A stretch of 64,000 bases of DNA, from positions 620,001-684,000 of the forward strand of contig AP021858.1 of NCBI GenBank assembly GCA_017347465.1, given 5' to 3'. The translations under genes and the position numbers were made by a program. This DNA is from Candidatus Nitrosymbiomonas proteolyticus. Its GTDB lineage: Bacteria > Armatimonadota > Fimbriimonadia > Fimbriimonadales > Fimbriimonadaceae. The first letter of the stretch is position 1, and every line of letters begins with the position of its first letter. Positions 15,062-24,150 of the stretch are shown here, piece after piece. The notes beneath the pieces were generated by a model, which was not told where the DNA came from, did not search any database, and worked only from the letters and a program-made list of their open reading frames with translations.

Positions 15062-16453
15062 CTATGTCAGCCTTGCAAAGCCCACAGCGCGGTGCAGCTT
15101 CGCCGCGTGGCGCAACTGCTGCGCCATCGCTTGTGGGCCGGTGCCCCCTTCCGACTCTCTTCGACGAACGGATCCCCTCGCGTCGAGGAGCTTCTCGGCT
15201 GCGGCGAGCGCTTCTTGGGTGAGCAGTCCAGCCAGGTGCTGGTTGAGGCTCTCCCGCGTGAATCGGCCCTTCTCGCGGCAATCTCTCACCATCCTCCCCA
15301 CGATCTCATGCGCCTCGCGGAAAGGGATGCCTTGCTCGGCGAGCAGGTCGGCGATGTCGGTTGCGACCGTGAAGCCCTGCCTTGCCGCGGCAGCCATCTT
15401 GCGCGCGTCCCATTCGGCCTCCGAGATCATGAGCGAAACGAGCCTCAGCGAATCTCGCGCGAGGTCGAGCGATTCAAAGAGAGGCGGTTTGTCGTCTTGC
15501 GTGTCGCGGTTGTATCCCAGCGGAAGAGCTTTGAGCGTCGCTGCGAGCGCGGTCCAGTTGCCGATCGCCCTTCCTGCGCGTCCGCGAATCAACTCGGCCA
15601 TATCGGGGTTTCGTTTCTGGGGCATGATGCTGGAGCCCGTGGTCACCCGGTCGCTGAGCCGAACGAAGCCAAATTCCTGAGTCGACCAAAGGATCAGCTC
15701 CTGGCACATTCGGCTCAGATGAATCATCAGCAGCGCGCAATTATGGAGCGCGTCCAAGACATAAGAGCGATCGGATACAGCGTCGAGCGCGTTGGGGATG
15801 GGGGCGGTGAACCCAAGCTCCGAACTCGTCATGCGGCGGTCGATGGGGAAGCCGGTACCCGCGAGCGCCGCCGCGCCCAAGGGGCAATAGTTCGCCGCAT
15901 CGAAGAGCCTCTCAGCGCGCCAGCCGTGCCGCTGCATGGCCCAAAAGTGAGCCAGCATCAAGAACCCCAGCGTAATCGGTTGGGCGGGTTGCATGTGCGT
16001 GTACCCCGGCATCAGCGTGTGGCGGTGCTTTCGGGCGACCTCCAACAACACTGCCTGAAGCGACTTCAATTCCCTTAGCAGGTGAACCAATTCGTTGTGC
16101 AAGTACAAGCGGGTGTCGGTGGCGACCTGGTCGTTGCGGCTTCGGGCGGTGTGGAGCTTCTTGGCGACCTCGCCGACGATCTCCCCGAGGCGAACCTCGA
16201 TCGCGGTATGGATGTCTTCGACGTCGAGCGGCAGTGAGTCGGGCCCAGCTTCGTGAATCTCTTCGAGCCCCTCGATCAGCTTCTTCGACTCTTCGGCAGA
16301 GAGGACCCCCACTTTGCCGAGCATCCGGGCGTGCGCGACACTCCCGATGAGGTCCTCTTGCCAAAACCTGAGGTCCGAGGCGATGCTCTGCCCGAACCGA
16401 TCCACCAGCGCGTCGGTCGTCTCTCCAAACGCGCCGCCCCACATTTTTCGCAT
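15062..16453 (-). CDS. argH: argininosuccinate lyase
   Basis: ArgH splits argininosuccinate into arginine and fumarate, the last arginine step. The 463-residue protein has normal length and the fumarase/aspartase superfamily signature GSSIMPQKRNP near residues 270-280. It also has the substrate-binding elements HTARSRNDQVATD near residue 105 and GYTHMQPAQP near residue 160, whose His is a catalytic residue. It is the last gene in the minus-strand order argDF, PEP-CTERM gene, argG, argH, about 100 bases behind argG. Confidence 0.97.
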   Translation of the reverse strand: MRKMWGGAFGETTDALVDRFGQSIASDLRFWQEDLIGSVAHARMLGKVGVLSAEESKKLIEGLEEIHEAGPDSLPLDVEDIHTAIEVRLGEIVGEVAKKLHTARSRNDQVATDTRLYLHNELVHLLRELKSLQAVLLEVARKHRHTLMPGYTHMQPAQPITLGFLMLAHFWAMQRHGWRAERLFDAANYCPLGAAALAGTGFPIDRRMTSSELGFTAPIPNALDAVSDRSYVLDALHNCALLMIHLSRMCQELILWSTQEFGFVRLSDRVTTGSSIMPQKRNPDMAELIRGRAGRAIGNWTALAATLKALPLGYNRDTQDDKPPLFESLDLARDSLRLVSLMISEAEWDARKMAAAARQGFTVATDIADLLAEQGIPFREAHEIVGRMVRDCREKGRFTRESLNQHLAGLLTQEALAAAEKLLDARGSVRRRESEGGTGPQAMAQQLRHAAKLHRAVGFARLT

Positions 16454-16555: not shown

Positions 16556-17749
16556 TCATCTTGGGTTCTTGAGCCTGAGGTACAGCAAGCTCTCCATCCC
16601 GTGAGTCTGAACCATCCCGGTCATGAGGCTCTGCTCCAGTTCCGCGGTGTCGTCGAACGAGGCCGCCGCTTCGCTGTAGAGCGCCCAAGGGGAGCTTCGA
16701 CTGACGACTTGCAGGGAACTCTTGAAGAGCCGAACTCGAACCGCACCCGTCACGCGCCGCTGCACGCTCGACAGGAAGGCGTTGAGGTCCTCCATCAGGG
16801 GGTCCCACCAGAGTCCCCGATACGCAAGCTCGGCCCACCGCTGATCGACCAGCGCCTTGAAGCTGCGCTCCTCGTGCGTCATCACGAGGCTCTCAAGGGC
16901 CCGGTGCGCCGCGATCAGGAGCGCCGCGCCGGGACATTCGTAGTTTTCGCGAACCTTCAGGCCGATCAGACGATCCTCCATGACGTCGATACGGCCCACC
17001 CCGTGCGCTCCAGCCACGCGGTTGGACTCGAGAATGACCTCCAGCGGCGAGCCTGCTATCGCACCTGTCCGAATAGGAACCCCTTCTACGAACTCGATTT
17101 CGATCGTCTCGGGACCAGGCAGTGCGCTTTCCAGCGAAGCTGTCCACTGAAAGATCTCCTCGGGCGGGGCATACGAGGGGTCTTCGAGGCGCCCGCCCTC
17201 GATCGACCGACCCCAAAGGTTCTCGTCGATCGACCAAATCTTCTGTTTGCTTTGGCCTATGGGGGCCCCCACACGCTCCGCGTATTCGATCTCCCAGCTG
17301 CGCGTGAGGTTCCGCTCCCGGACAGGCGCGCGAATCGGGATGTCGGGGGCGAACGCGCGGAGCCCGAACTCGATCCGGAACTGATCGTTGCCTTTGCCGG
17401 TGCAGCCGTGTACGAACGCGTCCACGTCGCCCATTTGAAGGGCCAACTCCGCGGCGGTTCGAGCGATCAAGGGCCGAGCGATCGCGGTCGAGAGTGGGTA
17501 GCCGAAGTAATCGGCGTTTGCGGCGAGCGCTCTCATGCAGTACTCGCGAGCGAACTCCTCCTTCACGTCCGCGACGTGGTGGTCGGTCCCGAGAATCGCC
17601 GCGCGTTCCGTAGCCTGCTCGATGTCCTCGGCGGGCTGGCCGACGTCGACGGTAACGGTCGAAATCGAGTCGTAACCCTCTTCGCGAAGGAGCGGAACGC
17701 AAACCGTCGTATCGAGCCCGCCCGAATAGATAACCAGCGCCTTTTTCAT
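16556..17749 (-). CDS. argG: argininosuccinate synthase
   Basis: ArgG joins citrulline and aspartate using ATP. The 397-residue protein opens with KALVIYSGGLDTTVCVPLL, the SGGLDT P-loop of the N-type ATP pyrophosphatases. It carries HGCTGKGNDQFRIE, APVRERNLTR and the GRIDVMEDRLIGLKVRENYE block of the family. Length is typical. It is 102 bases upstream of argH in the same direction. Its own upstream neighbour is the PEP-CTERM gene, with a T-poor hairpin between them (17840-17869). Confidence 0.97.
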   Translation of the reverse strand: MKKALVIYSGGLDTTVCVPLLREEGYDSISTVTVDVGQPAEDIEQATERAAILGTDHHVADVKEEFAREYCMRALAANADYFGYPLSTAIARPLIARTAAELALQMGDVDAFVHGCTGKGNDQFRIEFGLRAFAPDIPIRAPVRERNLTRSWEIEYAERVGAPIGQSKQKIWSIDENLWGRSIEGGRLEDPSYAPPEEIFQWTASLESALPGPETIEIEFVEGVPIRTGAIAGSPLEVILESNRVAGAHGVGRIDVMEDRLIGLKVRENYECPGAALLIAAHRALESLVMTHEERSFKALVDQRWAELAYRGLWWDPLMEDLNAFLSSVQRRVTGAVRVRLFKSSLQVVSRSSPWALYSEAAASFDDTAELEQSLMTGMVQTHGMESLLYLRLKNPR

Positions 17750-17893: not shown

Positions 17894-18613
17894 TTAGGAT
17901 CGTCGGCGTCGGATGAGGCCGATTGCTCCGAGAGCGAGGGCCGCCATCGTCGCGGGCTCAGGGACGGCCGCAAGGTTCGTCGAACCCGCAGTGTTTAGCG
18001 CCTCTCCAACATCAGGCGTACCTGTAAATCCAGGAAACCCTTCGCCGTCGAAGTCGTTCCTCATCCAGTCGGCGGTCGTGTCCGTATCCACACCGTTCGG
18101 GATTCGGGAGGCTCCTCCGGGACGGAAAGAATTGCCATCGTATCCGGGGCCCAAGACTACGCTTGAGTAGTTGACATCGCTCGCTCCACCATCGGTAACT
18201 CCGACCGAGTCGACGATAGAGGTCCATGGAGTCACGTCGAACACACCGTCATTGTCGACGTCCAGGTCTAGTCCGACAACGACGCCCGAAAGGTCGGTGA
18301 CCAGGAGCAAAGTTATCGTTCCGTTCTCGAGCATTCCGGCAGAATAGGGCGTTACCCAAAAACCGCCGGCGTCAGTGGTTCCAACCTGAATGATCTCGTC
18401 TAGAACACCGGCTCCGGTGCTATCGCCTTCGATTTCCAGAACGAAATAGTTGGAGAGGTCGGAGTTTGCAGACCCAAAGACCTCGACAAACTCATTCGTA
18501 TCGGATCCGGTGTGGTCGGCGACGAACTCGTTGATGACGGGAAAGGCTTGCGAATTGGCGAAAGCCGTGAGCAGGCCAAAAGCGCCCGCAACGGCCAGAA
18601 TGCGATTCTTCAT
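17894..18613 (-). CDS. PEP-CTERM-anchored exported protein with lamin-tail-like domain
   Basis: A 239-residue secreted protein. The start is chosen at the ATG preceded by AGGAG; upstream in-frame codons give no signal peptide. A signal peptide (ILAVAGAFGLLTAFANSQA) is followed by PVINEFVADHTGSDTNEFVEVFG, which resembles the opening of lamin-tail (LTD) domains. A Gly/Asp/Ser-rich beta region follows. The C-terminus is a classic PEP-CTERM sorting signal: VPEPATMAALALGAIGLIRRRR, that is, a PEP motif, a hydrophobic helix and an arginine cluster. Such signals are processed by an exosortase; none is in this window. A plausible promoter lies at 18676-18704. The gene interrupts the arginine-gene series, with no functional link apparent. 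Confidence 0.85.
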   Translation of the reverse strand: MKNRILAVAGAFGLLTAFANSQAFPVINEFVADHTGSDTNEFVEVFGSANSDLSNYFVLEIEGDSTGAGVLDEIIQVGTTDAGGFWVTPYSAGMLENGTITLLLVTDLSGVVVGLDLDVDNDGVFDVTPWTSIVDSVGVTDGGASDVNYSSVVLGPGYDGNSFRPGGASRIPNGVDTDTTADWMRNDFDGEGFPGFTGTPDVGEALNTAGSTNLAAVPEPATMAALALGAIGLIRRRRS

Positions 18614-18675
18614 TTCTTGATGATCTCCTCTTGAGCAACGGTCAGATGATATCTGAACGATCCTTGGATGCCCAA

Positions 18676-18704
18676 AGAATAGCACCTCGGTTTTTGAAGT
18701 TGAA
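18676..18704 (-). promoter_or_regulatory. predicted promoter of the PEP-CTERM gene
   Basis: On the minus strand TTCAAC (18704-18699), a 17-base spacer, and TATTCT (18681-18676) with a TGC extended -10 just ahead of it. It lies 63 bases upstream of the chosen start at 18613 and would separate this gene from argDF transcription. Confidence 0.5.
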
Positions 18705-18749: not shown

Positions 18750-20852
18750 TCAAGCTTCAACCCCCAGTACCTTCGACAGGAGCGCCTTCTGCGCATAGAG
18801 TCGGTTTTCGGCTTGATCGACCACTCGGCTCTGCGGCCCGTCGATCACCTCATCGACCACTTCGAAGCCCCGACGCGCCGGGAGACAATGCAGGAAGATC
18901 GCATCGCTCGACGCCATCGACATCACGCGCTGATCGACCTGGTACGCCTCGAACACCTTGAGCCTGTGCTCTTGCTCGTGCTCGTCGCCCATGCTGATCC
19001 AAACGTCGGTATAGACGGCCTTGGCTCCGGCGAGGCCCTCTTCGAGCGAGGCCGTTTGCAGGAGCCCCGGCGCGGGATCGAGCCAGAAGTTCTCCGGGCC
19101 GACGACCGCAAACTCGTACCCAAGCTGAAGGGCCAGCTTCGAAAGACTGCGGGCCACGTTGTTGCCATCGCCCACATAAGCGATCTTGACCTTCTCGGAG
19201 CCGAAATTCTCCTGAATCGTCAGCATGTCCGCGAGCGCTTGACACGGGTGTTCGAGTTCGGTAAGCGCATTGATGACCGGCGCATCGGAGTAATGCGCCA
19301 ATTCGAGCAAGTGCCGGTGCCAGAACAACCTCGCCACGAGAGCCGAGCACCATCGGGAAAGGTTCGACGCGACGTCTTTGATCGCCTCGCGCTTGCCCAT
19401 ATCGATATCGTTCCGAGTGAGATAAACCGGGTGGCCTCCAAGGTCACGAATCGCCGCCTCAAACGTCACGCGGGTTCGGAGCGAGGCCTTTTCGAAGACG
19501 AGCGCGACGGTTCTGCCGACGACCGGACGGACCGGTTCGGGCGCCCCCTTGCTGCGGCTCTTGAGGGAGCGGGCCAGCGCGAGAACCTCAGCCGCCTGAT
19601 CTGCCGAGAGGTCCTCCATAGCAAGAACGTCGTGGAGCTTCGCGGGTTCGGCGTGGGGGCTGGTTCGGACCGGCTGACGCTCCTCCAGCGCTGCGCGAAG
19701 CCGCTCGACCGCCTCCCCTGCTTGTTCCTGAGTGACGATCAGGGGCGGGACGAGTCTGAGGGTGAACTCGTCGGGTGCGTTGACGATCAAGCCATGATCG
19801 AGAGCGCGGAGGACGGTCTCCTTGGCGATAGGCCGCGAAAGCCGCACACCGAGCATCAGACCCGATCCTCGAACCTCTACGACGGGATCGCCGAGGCCGA
19901 GAAGCCTTTGCCGCAGAACATCGCCGACGGCGATCGCGTTTTCTATCAGCCGTTCGTCTTCGAGGGTCTGAAGGACTTCGAGCGCGACTCCACACATCAG
20001 AGCGCTCCCGCCGAACGTGGTCCCGTGTTCGCCGAGTGAGAGAACCTCCGCGGCCTCCCCACGAGCAAGACACGCTCCGATCGGCATCCCCCCTCCGAGG
20101 CCCTTGGCCAGAGTAAGGAGGTCCGGCAAGAACCCGTGCTGCTGGAAGTTGAACCAAGTTCCAGTCCGTCCGATCCCGGTTTGGATCTCGTCGAGAATCA
20201 GGAGCGCGCCGTGGCGGTCGCACAGGGCCCTTACCTCGCGCAAATAATCCGTACTCAGCGGAATCACCCCCGCCTCACCCTGAATCGGCTCCAGGGTGAT
20301 CGCCGCCGTGCTTTCGGAAAAGGCCCCCCGAAGAGCCTCGACGTCGCCGCGAGGCAGAAAACGAACGCCAGGAACCAGGTCGCCGAACGGTTCCCGGTAT
20401 TTGGGGTTGTATGTTACAGAGAGCGCACCGGCGGTTCTCCCGTGGAAGCCGCCTTCAAGGGCCAAGATTTCGGCCTTGCCGAGCGACTTACCGCGCTTCT
20501 TGGCGATCTTGAGTGCTGTTTCGTTAGCCGTCCCGCCGCAACTTGTGAAGAACACCCTCTCCATGCCCGAGAGCCGGCAAAGCCGTTCGGCGAGCCGAGC
20601 CGGAGGAGCCGTCAAGAGAAAGTTGGAGACGTGGGCTACGGTCGATGCCTGTCGGTTGATCGCCGAGACGAATCGCGGGTGGGCATGGCCCAAACAGCAG
20701 ACGGCGATTCCGGCCAAAAAATCGAGGTAGCGTCGGCCTTCGGTGTCCCACACCTCGCATCCAGAGCCCCTTTCGATTGCGAGGGGCAGCCGCGCGTACG
20801 TGGCGATCGCGTAGGTCGAGTCAAGTTCAAAGAGGTTGACGTTGGTGTTCAT
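18750..20852 (-). CDS. bifunctional acetylornithine aminotransferase / ornithine carbamoyltransferase (ArgD-ArgF fusion)
   Basis: One uninterrupted 700-residue reading frame with two complete enzymes. Residues 1 to about 395 are a class-III PLP aminotransferase of the ArgD type (GIAVCCLGHAHP, LILDEIQTGIGRTG, TLAKGLGGGMPIGA with the PLP lysine near 248, HGTTFGGSALMCG). After a short linker, residues about 405-700 are an ornithine carbamoyltransferase. It has a carbamoyl-phosphate loop SLRTR (usually STRTR), HPCQALADM, DVWISMGDE (the ornithine-binding SMG loop, which argues against acetylornithine carbamoyltransferase) and FLHCLPA. In the pathway these enzymes are separated by deacetylation of acetylornithine (ArgJ or ArgE), so the fusion skips one step. 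argG and argH follow downstream. A 5-bp GC hairpin (20863-20877) sits just before the start and no clear Shine-Dalgarno is seen. Confidence 0.93.
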   Translation of the reverse strand: MNTNVNLFELDSTYAIATYARLPLAIERGSGCEVWDTEGRRYLDFLAGIAVCCLGHAHPRFVSAINRQASTVAHVSNFLLTAPPARLAERLCRLSGMERVFFTSCGGTANETALKIAKKRGKSLGKAEILALEGGFHGRTAGALSVTYNPKYREPFGDLVPGVRFLPRGDVEALRGAFSESTAAITLEPIQGEAGVIPLSTDYLREVRALCDRHGALLILDEIQTGIGRTGTWFNFQQHGFLPDLLTLAKGLGGGMPIGACLARGEAAEVLSLGEHGTTFGGSALMCGVALEVLQTLEDERLIENAIAVGDVLRQRLLGLGDPVVEVRGSGLMLGVRLSRPIAKETVLRALDHGLIVNAPDEFTLRLVPPLIVTQEQAGEAVERLRAALEERQPVRTSPHAEPAKLHDVLAMEDLSADQAAEVLALARSLKSRSKGAPEPVRPVVGRTVALVFEKASLRTRVTFEAAIRDLGGHPVYLTRNDIDMGKREAIKDVASNLSRWCSALVARLFWHRHLLELAHYSDAPVINALTELEHPCQALADMLTIQENFGSEKVKIAYVGDGNNVARSLSKLALQLGYEFAVVGPENFWLDPAPGLLQTASLEEGLAGAKAVYTDVWISMGDEHEQEHRLKVFEAYQVDQRVMSMASSDAIFLHCLPARRGFEVVDEVIDGPQSRVVDQAENRLYAQKALLSKVLGVEA

Positions 20853-21944: not shown

Positions 21945-22874
21945 TCAATTCGGGACCGCTTCGCTCAAGATTTCGGAGTTGATCTGGCCGGTCCGCCGAT
22001 GGCCGCCCGCGATCAGGCAGCCAGAAAAGCTCCCGCCCTCGACCCTCGCGCCAGCGAAGACGACCGTGTTCTCCAGCTTCTCGGCCTTGACCCGCGCGCC
22101 CGGCCCGACCACCACATTGGGACCCAACTCGCAATCGACCGCCGCCGCCGGGTCGATCAACGCTCCTCCGCCCACCAAGTACGCCGAGGTGCTGAGAAAC
22201 GATTCGAGAGTGCCGGTGTCAAACCAATCGCCTTCGAAGACGCCCGCGCGGACGTCATTCCCCTGCGAAACCAGGGCTTGGATCGCGTCTGTGATTTCAA
22301 ACTCCCCCCGAGCGCTAGGCTGAAGCGTCGGCAAGACCTTCCAAATCGCCTCGCGAAAAAAGTACATCCCCGCCATTGCGTAGTTCGACTCAGGGTTTGC
22401 GGGTTTCTCGACGAGCTTCACGATCCGGTCCCCATCGAGGTTGGCTACCCCGAACCTGCGCGGGTCCTCGACCCACTTGACGATATTAAGATTCGCGCAG
22501 TCGGAATCGAGAAACCGCTCGGCGTGGCGCTGAAAATCCTCCGAATACACAACGTCGCCCAGATACAAAACAAACGGGGCGCCCGATACGAACTCCTCGG
22601 CAAACGAGAGGGCATGAGCGAGTCCTTTGGGCTCGGTCTGGCGCGCATAGGAGAGCCGGAGACCGAACTGCCTGCCGCCGCCCAACGCCCCGCGAATCTG
22701 CGGCTCATTCTCACCAACCACCACGCAAACCTCATCGATCCCCATCGATCGGAACTGATCGAAGGCGTATTCGAGCGTGGGACGGTTCGCTAACGGCAGG
22801 AGGGGTTTGGCGATTTGGTGGGTAATCGGATACAGACGGGTGCCTTTACCAGCGGCGAGAACGACGCCCTTCAT
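21945..22874 (-). CDS. sugar-1-phosphate nucleotidyltransferase (RmlA-like) with C-terminal left-handed beta-helix
   Basis: MKGVVLAAGKGTRLYPITHQIAKPLLPLANRP is the nucleotidyltransferase signature (GxGTRL...PKPLLP type). Conserved blocks include LYLGDVVY and VEDPRRFGVANLD. Residues about 240-309 switch to hexapeptide repeats (AVDCELGPNVVVGPGARVKAEKL), the beta-helix found in long RmlA-type and GlmU-like enzymes. The likely reaction is glucose-1-phosphate plus dTTP to dTDP-glucose; the exact sugar and nucleotide cannot be read from sequence. The ATG at 22874 is chosen because the motif begins there; a longer frame to 23084 runs through the divergent gene and has no family match. Confidence 0.88.
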   Translation of the reverse strand: MKGVVLAAGKGTRLYPITHQIAKPLLPLANRPTLEYAFDQFRSMGIDEVCVVVGENEPQIRGALGGGRQFGLRLSYARQTEPKGLAHALSFAEEFVSGAPFVLYLGDVVYSEDFQRHAERFLDSDCANLNIVKWVEDPRRFGVANLDGDRIVKLVEKPANPESNYAMAGMYFFREAIWKVLPTLQPSARGEFEITDAIQALVSQGNDVRAGVFEGDWFDTGTLESFLSTSAYLVGGGALIDPAAAVDCELGPNVVVGPGARVKAEKLENTVVFAGARVEGGSFSGCLIAGGHRRTGQINSEILSEAVPN

Positions 22875-22929
22875 CCCGGCAAGGATAGCACACCTCTTTA
22901 TGCTAAAATCGTGCGTGGGAGACCGCGCC

Positions 22930-24150
22930 ATGGAAGGTCGGGTCAAGTTCGCTCTATTCGTCGTGATCGTTGCCGGGGGCTGCGCAAAAGCCCCGCCTCC
23001 GACGTTCGATATCTGGAGCAACAAGCTCGGAGCGCCGACGCAGGCACGTTCGCGAACGTTCGAGGAGTACGTCCGCGCGGCCAACGTCGCCGAAAAACTG
23101 TTTCCGGAGTACGTGAACCGCGTTCATTTCACTCCGGGCATCCAGAAGCAGATCGTCGACGGGCTCGCTCCTACCCTCGAACGGCTCGCCAAGCAAACCG
23201 CCGAGCCCTGTGAGTTCGCCTTTCAACCGCTCGGACCGTTCGAGGCTCCGCCGCATCAACAGGGCTGGCGGCTGATCGGGCGCGCTCTCGCGTTCCGGAT
23301 TCAAACCTCCCTGCTCGAGGGGCGGGGCGAGGAGGCCGTCCGCGACCTCCTGCTTGCCACAAGGTTCGGTTTCGACATCTGCTCGGGCTCGGCCACCGAC
23401 GCTTCCTTGGGTCTAACCATCGTCGACGACGCGCGCCGGGCGTTCTTGCCCCACCTGCATCAACTCGGCGCGGAGCAACTGGAGCGGCTTTCTGCCGGAC
23501 TCAAGGGCGAACTCGACCGGCGACGCTCGCTTTCGACGGCGATCCACAACGAACACCTCAACATGCGCGAGGCCATTCAATTCGTTCAGGATAGCTTCCG
23601 AAAGGGCGAAGCGAGCCTCCTTTCGGAGAGGCTCGGACTCGACGTACAAGATGCCGTTCAATACCTCGACCAGCTTCGAGGCAAATCCGGGGAGGAACAG
23701 GTTGCGTACTTCAGCGGGTTTGGCAAGGAGGCGGACCTGATTCGCGAGTACGAGATGGGTCGCGCCGACCTCAACGCAAGGCAACGAGACAGCCTGAAGC
23801 CGCTCTCTCTCCCCGAGCCCAGGCCCTGGTGGAGGCTGTCGAAGCACCTTTTCTTCACCTTCGACTCGCTCCTGGAGGCTCGCGATCGAACGGTCGCCCG
23901 AACCCGGCTTCTGGCCGTCGAGGCGAGCGTCCTTGCTTCCGTCAAGAACTCGGGCCAAGCCCCGAGGGACCTCAACTCGCTTGCCGAGTCTTTGGTGATC
24001 GACCCCTATACCGGTCAAAAGCTCCTCTATCGAGCGAGCGGCGCAACGTACCGACTGTATAGCGTGGGCGCGAATCTTGCCGACGATGGCGGAGACACCA
24101 ACGAAGAACACGCTGAGCCCGACCTAACCCTCGAAGACTTCGGTCCTTGA
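22930..24150 (+). CDS. lipoprotein of unknown function
   Basis: A 406-residue lipoprotein: signal EGRVKFALFVVIVAGGC with the cysteine near residue 18. GGGAG lies about 8 bases before the chosen ATG; in-frame codons upstream would extend into the divergent nucleotidyltransferase gene. The mature part is mostly helical (FEEYVRAANVAEKLFPEYVNR, LLEGRGEEAVRDLLLATRFG). A C-terminal segment, ASGATYRLYSVGANLADDGGDTN, resembles the last part of prepilin-like or general secretion pseudopilin proteins, where YxLYSxGxNxxDDGG is common. Whether this is homology or chance is unclear. The next gene, DAHP synthase, is 45 bases away. Confidence 0.7.
   Translation: MEGRVKFALFVVIVAGGCAKAPPPTFDIWSNKLGAPTQARSRTFEEYVRAANVAEKLFPEYVNRVHFTPGIQKQIVDGLAPTLERLAKQTAEPCEFAFQPLGPFEAPPHQQGWRLIGRALAFRIQTSLLEGRGEEAVRDLLLATRFGFDICSGSATDASLGLTIVDDARRAFLPHLHQLGAEQLERLSAGLKGELDRRRSLSTAIHNEHLNMREAIQFVQDSFRKGEASLLSERLGLDVQDAVQYLDQLRGKSGEEQVAYFSGFGKEADLIREYEMGRADLNARQRDSLKPLSLPEPRPWWRLSKHLFFTFDSLLEARDRTVARTRLLAVEASVLASVKNSGQAPRDLNSLAESLVIDPYTGQKLLYRASGATYRLYSVGANLADDGGDTNEEHAEPDLTLEDFGP

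Follow-up and report, generated by a model that had tools for sequence, protein, structure and literature searches.

The argD-argF gene and its two halves

The window, i.e., the whole stretch of 64,000 nucleotides that was analysed, carries on its minus strand, at positions 18750-20852, an argD-argF fusion gene coding for a protein of 700 amino acids, which was delineated as an open reading frame and by family and Pfam profiles. The frame starts with ATG and runs for 700 codons without an internal stop or frameshift. Its first part, residues 14-392 (19677-20813, minus strand), is an acetylornithine aminotransferase (ArgD), scoring 488.2 bits against the NCBIfam acetylornithine transaminase model NF002874 (cut-off 457) and 443.9 against TIGR00707 (cut-off 410.05). 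The second part, residues 405-696 (18765-19640, minus strand), is an ornithine carbamoyltransferase (OTC, or ArgF) with NCBIfam scores of 314.7 bits for TIGR00658 (cut-off 280.85) and 353.2 bits for NF001986 (cut-off 306), and Pfam agrees with NCBIfam on both halves. The nearest solved structures are ArgDs of Corynebacterium, Thermotoga and Mycobacterium for one half and classical OTCs for the other.

The ArgD half possesses the class-III active-site motifs, including the PLP lysine K250 in LAKGLGGG, FHGRT, DE-I/V-Q and HGTTFGG. Its PLP-phosphate loop reads CGGTANE, whereas most ArgDs have SGxEANE; the loop form C-G-[AGT]-[TS]-A is common to the listed fused relatives in the family and to a few unfused proteins, and, judging by this sequence difference, the kinetics of the ArgD half could differ from the usual. 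All OTC motifs are present as well, namely SxRTR (here SLRTR), HPCQ, DxxxSMG (here DVWISMG), HCLP and ENRxxAQKA, and the first four are nearly invariant across the fused relatives; SLRTR is also the usual form in unfused Armatimonadota OTCs. Profiles and motifs thus agree with the earlier note, which had described a complete ArgD followed by a complete ArgF in one 700-residue frame with both catalytic sets visible.

Two other identities were considered for the halves and rejected. For N-acetylornithine carbamoyltransferase (AOTC), an identity that would make the fused reactions consecutive, the OTC half scores only 138.4 against a cut-off of 288 (NF003384), and the motifs also speak against it; by profile and motif, this half is a genuine OTC. 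The ArgD half falls below the cut-off of the ornithine--oxo-acid aminotransferase model (TIGR01885, 306.7 against 378.4). The gene product would then be an ordinary ArgD joined to an ordinary OTC, both predicted to be catalytically active. The claim that their reactions are not consecutive holds under this family assignment: N-acetylornithine must be processed by ArgJ before OTC can act, and a search of the window genome with the NF003384 profile found no AOTC.

The halves are separated by a linker of about residues 393-409 (19626-19676, minus strand), delimited by pLDDT values, which are below 50 at residues 393-409 of the predicted structure, and by the linker sequences of fused relatives, which vary in length and sequence and share no conserved motif. 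The only start codon in frame around the joint is an ATG at residue 412, without an obvious Shine-Dalgarno sequence. The predicted structure of the fusion, built from 20 sequences, is of moderate quality (pLDDT 73, pTM 0.53) and leaves the arrangement of the halves unsettled; the low confidence of the model at the linker, together with the linker's variability, is as expected if the linker is a flexible tether. ArgD enzymes form dimers. Since transcarbamylases are trimers (PMC4581275), the fused chain should build a larger assembly, and we infer that some higher-order arrangement is needed, e.g., two trimers bridged by three dimers.

Downstream of the fusion gene and on the same strand lie argG (16556-17749) and then argH (15062-16453), both recognised as open reading frames with homologues, and a gene for a PEP-CTERM protein (17894-18685, minus strand) is found between the fusion and argG. 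The earlier note took the coupling to argG and argH to suggest an arginine-synthesis assembly. The neighbourhood does exist in the window genome and in a same-species relative, but the PEP-CTERM frame interrupts it and it is not conserved across the family; because of this lack of conservation, the case for such an assembly is weak. Upstream lies a nucleotidyl transferase gene (21945-23084, minus strand; Pfam PF00483 and synteny), which is not part of the enzyme and which marks the same locus in relatives, even in those with a single half.

Spread and origin of the fusion

Fimbriimonadaceae, referred to below as family f1, are soil and water bacteria. The search covered 291 genomes of the phylum Armatimonadota, 85 of them from this family. 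Mapping the phylogenetic spread of the two domains, as the earlier note had proposed, revealed an unbroken fusion in 30 of the 85 family genomes, carriers including by name Fimbriimonadaceae and Fimbriimonas MAGs, and a second fusion in two genomes, G011 and G014, of another family of the phylum. The window itself comes from a finished, single-contig family f1 genome of 2.81 Mb; a 98%-identical copy is present in CP054189.1, a single-contig Chthonomonadaceae genome assembled from a metagenome, and the 5.23-Mb single-contig genome G080 carries the same uninterrupted join. A scan of 84,980 genomes for exact peptides used the window protein only, and the absence of matches elsewhere in it is weak evidence. 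The earlier note gave this fusion as not known to be described, and likewise no published description was found in the literature searched, the coverage of which was partial; the genome paper of Fimbriimonas ginsengisoli Gsoil 348 (PMC4072686) mentions neither ornithine nor a fusion.

A 31st copy in the family, in the draft genome G087 (L051:7525), is interrupted by an in-frame TAG in its OTC half, which may represent decay or an assembly error; ArgJ was not found in this genome. Several matches that resembled interrupted or additional fusions were set aside. The full-length matches with one stop in G219, G007, G005, G057, G045 and G056 are adjacent separate genes, and the stop seen in G139-G141 is the terminator. 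The Myxococcota matches checked are separate genes, too, with L054 consisting of two overlapping genes.

The outgroups point to how the fusion could have arisen. At outgroup loci such as L058, L064 and L074, the gene order is argC-argJ-argB-argD-argF-argG-argH: the same two enzymes are encoded in the same order and next to each other but as two separate proteins. Six outgroup pairs have both genes in the same reading frame, argD first and just one stop codon before argF, and this one-stop, in-frame arrangement is also seen in the Myxococcota argD-argF pairs examined. Loss of this stop codon explains the fusion and is its most likely origin. In family f1, the operon has been broken up, with argCJB lying 447 kb from the fusion in the window genome, while in two relatives argC and argJ are found a few kilobases downstream of it.

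The OTC halves of the family f1 fusions form a clade with support of 100/100, the G011 and G014 fusion groups in the trees with its own family, apart from the f1 clade, and a topology that unites all fused ArgDs in one clade is rejected (p-AU 0.013). On the strength of these trees, the fusion arose twice independently. In a relative of the second lineage (L076:3839-5278, minus strand), an OTC is preceded in frame by a Clp_N domain.

The halves also occur alone. G102 has a lone OTC half that falls inside the fused OTC clade and is encoded directly after the nucleotidyl transferase gene, which stands before the fusion in the window and in many relatives. G122 has a lone ArgD half at the fusion locus, and its AOTC cluster is devoid of an aminotransferase gene; G130 and G131 likewise have a lone ArgD of the fused type. 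The lone ArgDs of these three genomes nest within the fused clade and, from their position in the tree, likely descend from the fusion, although the test does not reject a topology in which the fused ArgDs of f1 all form one group (p-AU 0.18). The occurrence of halves alone suggests that neither depends on its partner to work and that an N-acylated ornithine is the product of the ArgD half.

ArgJ and AOTC in the window genome and in the family

The pathway genes of the window genome were located by family search. The earlier note had called for a check of whether argJ exists in the genome, and it does: an argC-argJ-argB cluster lies at G000:C1 1084912-1088017, each gene scoring over its own family cut-off, with argJ at G000:C1:1085769-1086914. 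With these three genes present and argG and argH in the window, the route through ornithine is complete. The sole other carbamoyltransferase found in the genome matches both the OTC and AOTC models weakly and is probably pyrB, and the other close aminotransferase, which most closely resembles putrescine aminotransferase, falls below the ArgD cut-offs.

Within family f1, ArgJ was found in 30 of the 31 genomes with a fusion gene versus 2 of the 54 without it, and AOTC in none of the 31 versus 34 of the 54 (33 over the cut-off and one partial copy); the two enzymes never occur in the same family genome. The Fisher values for these patterns, 2e-19 and 8e-10, are descriptive and do not constitute tests since the genomes are related. 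AOTC takes N-acetylated ornithine as its substrate and thereby bypasses ArgJ. The pattern is consistent with an OTC half that depends on the ornithine released by ArgJ. The fusion is real and old, and it is inherited together with ArgJ, the enzyme of the missing middle step. The ArgJ match in G080 (G080:C1:2278602-2279792) is in two pieces within one open frame, which suggests an insert in this ArgJ.

At the AOTC loci examined (e.g., L112, L107, L110 and L114), the cluster reads argG-x-argC-aminotransferase-AOTC-argB-M20 peptidase-argH. Its proteins share only about 30-40% identity with those of the window, and this low identity suggests that the arginine pathway was replaced from outside, as is apparently the case in these relatives. 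At two further loci, L119 (7747-12552) and L123, an OTC is encoded beside argG and argH in genomes without ArgJ, and the L119 cluster also has an ornithine aminotransferase scoring above its cut-off; these two loci and L118 may represent a third, acetyl-free route to arginine.

Proposed working of the enzyme and its known counterparts

We propose that the fusion is probably a bifunctional enzyme of arginine synthesis in which steps 4 and 6 are tethered while step 5 is left to a separate ArgJ, and that it originated by stop loss. The ArgD half would make N-acetylornithine (step 4), the separate ArgJ would turn it into ornithine, recycling the acetyl group (step 5), and the OTC half, held to the ArgD half by the flexible linker, would make citrulline from ornithine (step 6). 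Such a gene would have been born from an ancestral argCJBDFGH operon when the single stop between the in-frame neighbours was lost. The benefit most likely consists of fixed 1:1 production and co-assembly of the two enzymes after the breakup of the operon and not of direct hand-over between active sites, and, as the fusion has persisted across the family, tethering could have a role beyond setting the stoichiometry.

It is conceivable, though unlikely, that the fusion serves as a scaffold, with ArgJ bound either between the two halves or at their side, and that a single assembly of three enzymes produces acetylornithine, ornithine and citrulline. The two fused steps exactly flank the step of ArgJ, and the same pair has been fused twice; the nearly constant company of ArgJ (30 of 31 genomes) could be read in the same way, but shared membership in the pathway predicts this co-occurrence equally well. 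The linker is variable and thus offers no docking motif, although ArgJ might contact the domain surfaces. In the window genome, argJ is 447 kb from the fusion, in the cluster with argC and argB, and shows no sign of co-translation, and the outgroups use separate enzymes for the same pathway. A more elaborate arrangement is doubtful: the fusion would be the core of an arginine assembly, a cage-like hexamer built of ArgD dimers and OTC trimers, and ArgJ would dock into it, so that the enzymes flanking the missing step are held around that step. If true, this would be a new metabolon design, with the flanking enzymes fused and the middle one recruited.

We also think it improbable that stop loss produced the join as a neutral accident, working and harmless, and kept because splitting the gene again would require a stop, a ribosome site and a start to be created anew. 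In-frame pairs one stop apart are common in Armatimonadota and Myxococcota, the linkers are unconserved, and the halves have been lost separately in relatives, all of which such an accident would explain. Nevertheless, no ArgJ-bearing genome of the family has an intact two-gene version despite divergence to about 56-64% identity, but with so sparse a tree this absence cannot be called selection.

The earlier note's alternative, direct production of ornithine by the ArgD half, would start from glutamate semialdehyde and render the fused reactions consecutive, and the ornithine aminotransferase beside OTC, argG and argH at locus L119 of an ArgJ-less relative offers a parallel. We find it very hard to reconcile with the scores of the ArgD half (307 bits against 378 for ornithine aminotransferase, 488 against 457 for acetylornithine transaminase), with the window genome keeping the acetylated route of argC, argJ and argB and nearly all fusion genomes having ArgJ, or with the close relatives of this half that stand alone in AOTC genomes. 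That the fusion is an assembly or frameshift artefact is next to impossible: the window gives no sign of it, one relative, G087, has the TAG in the OTC half, and an error at about residues 395-410, which the note had named as a possible refutation, is ruled out by the same join being uninterrupted in 30 separately assembled family genomes, to which the second lineage adds its own uninterrupted frame.

The tethered enzyme of steps 4 and 6 that we favour enlarges the small set of known arginine-synthesis fusions by a full-length two-enzyme chain with non-consecutive steps. The principle is not new: argH(A) of Moritella, Vibrio and Alteromonas-like marine bacteria, in which ArgH is joined to a short N-acetylglutamate synthase domain, is a precedent for fusing non-consecutive activities (the last and the first steps) in a single lineage, and it has been explained by operon adjacency and co-regulation (PMC1382215). 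It differs from ArgD-ArgF in its enzymes and in that one partner is not of full size but a small acetyltransferase domain; argH(A) has also been shown to complement an E. coli argA mutant (PMC1382215). The N-acetylglutamate synthase-kinase of Xanthomonas campestris also combines two arginine enzymes in one chain, but their reactions, steps 1 and 2, are consecutive (PMC1865377).

Family f1 amounts to a natural experiment, as its related genomes have the fusion with ArgJ, have an AOTC cluster in its place, or have lost one half or the whole pathway, and this variety allows fusions of neighbouring operon genes to be tested for channelling, scaffolding or mere co-expression. As for the expected architecture, E. 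coli aspartate transcarbamylase (ATCase) consists of two trimers with three regulatory dimers, and it, the Aquifex ATCase-dihydroorotase and animal CAD all place a transcarbamylase trimer in a larger assembly, as is expected of ArgD-ArgF; unlike ArgD-ArgF, these assemblies belong to the pyrimidine pathway, have known quaternary structures and involve partners unrelated to ArgD (PMC4581275).
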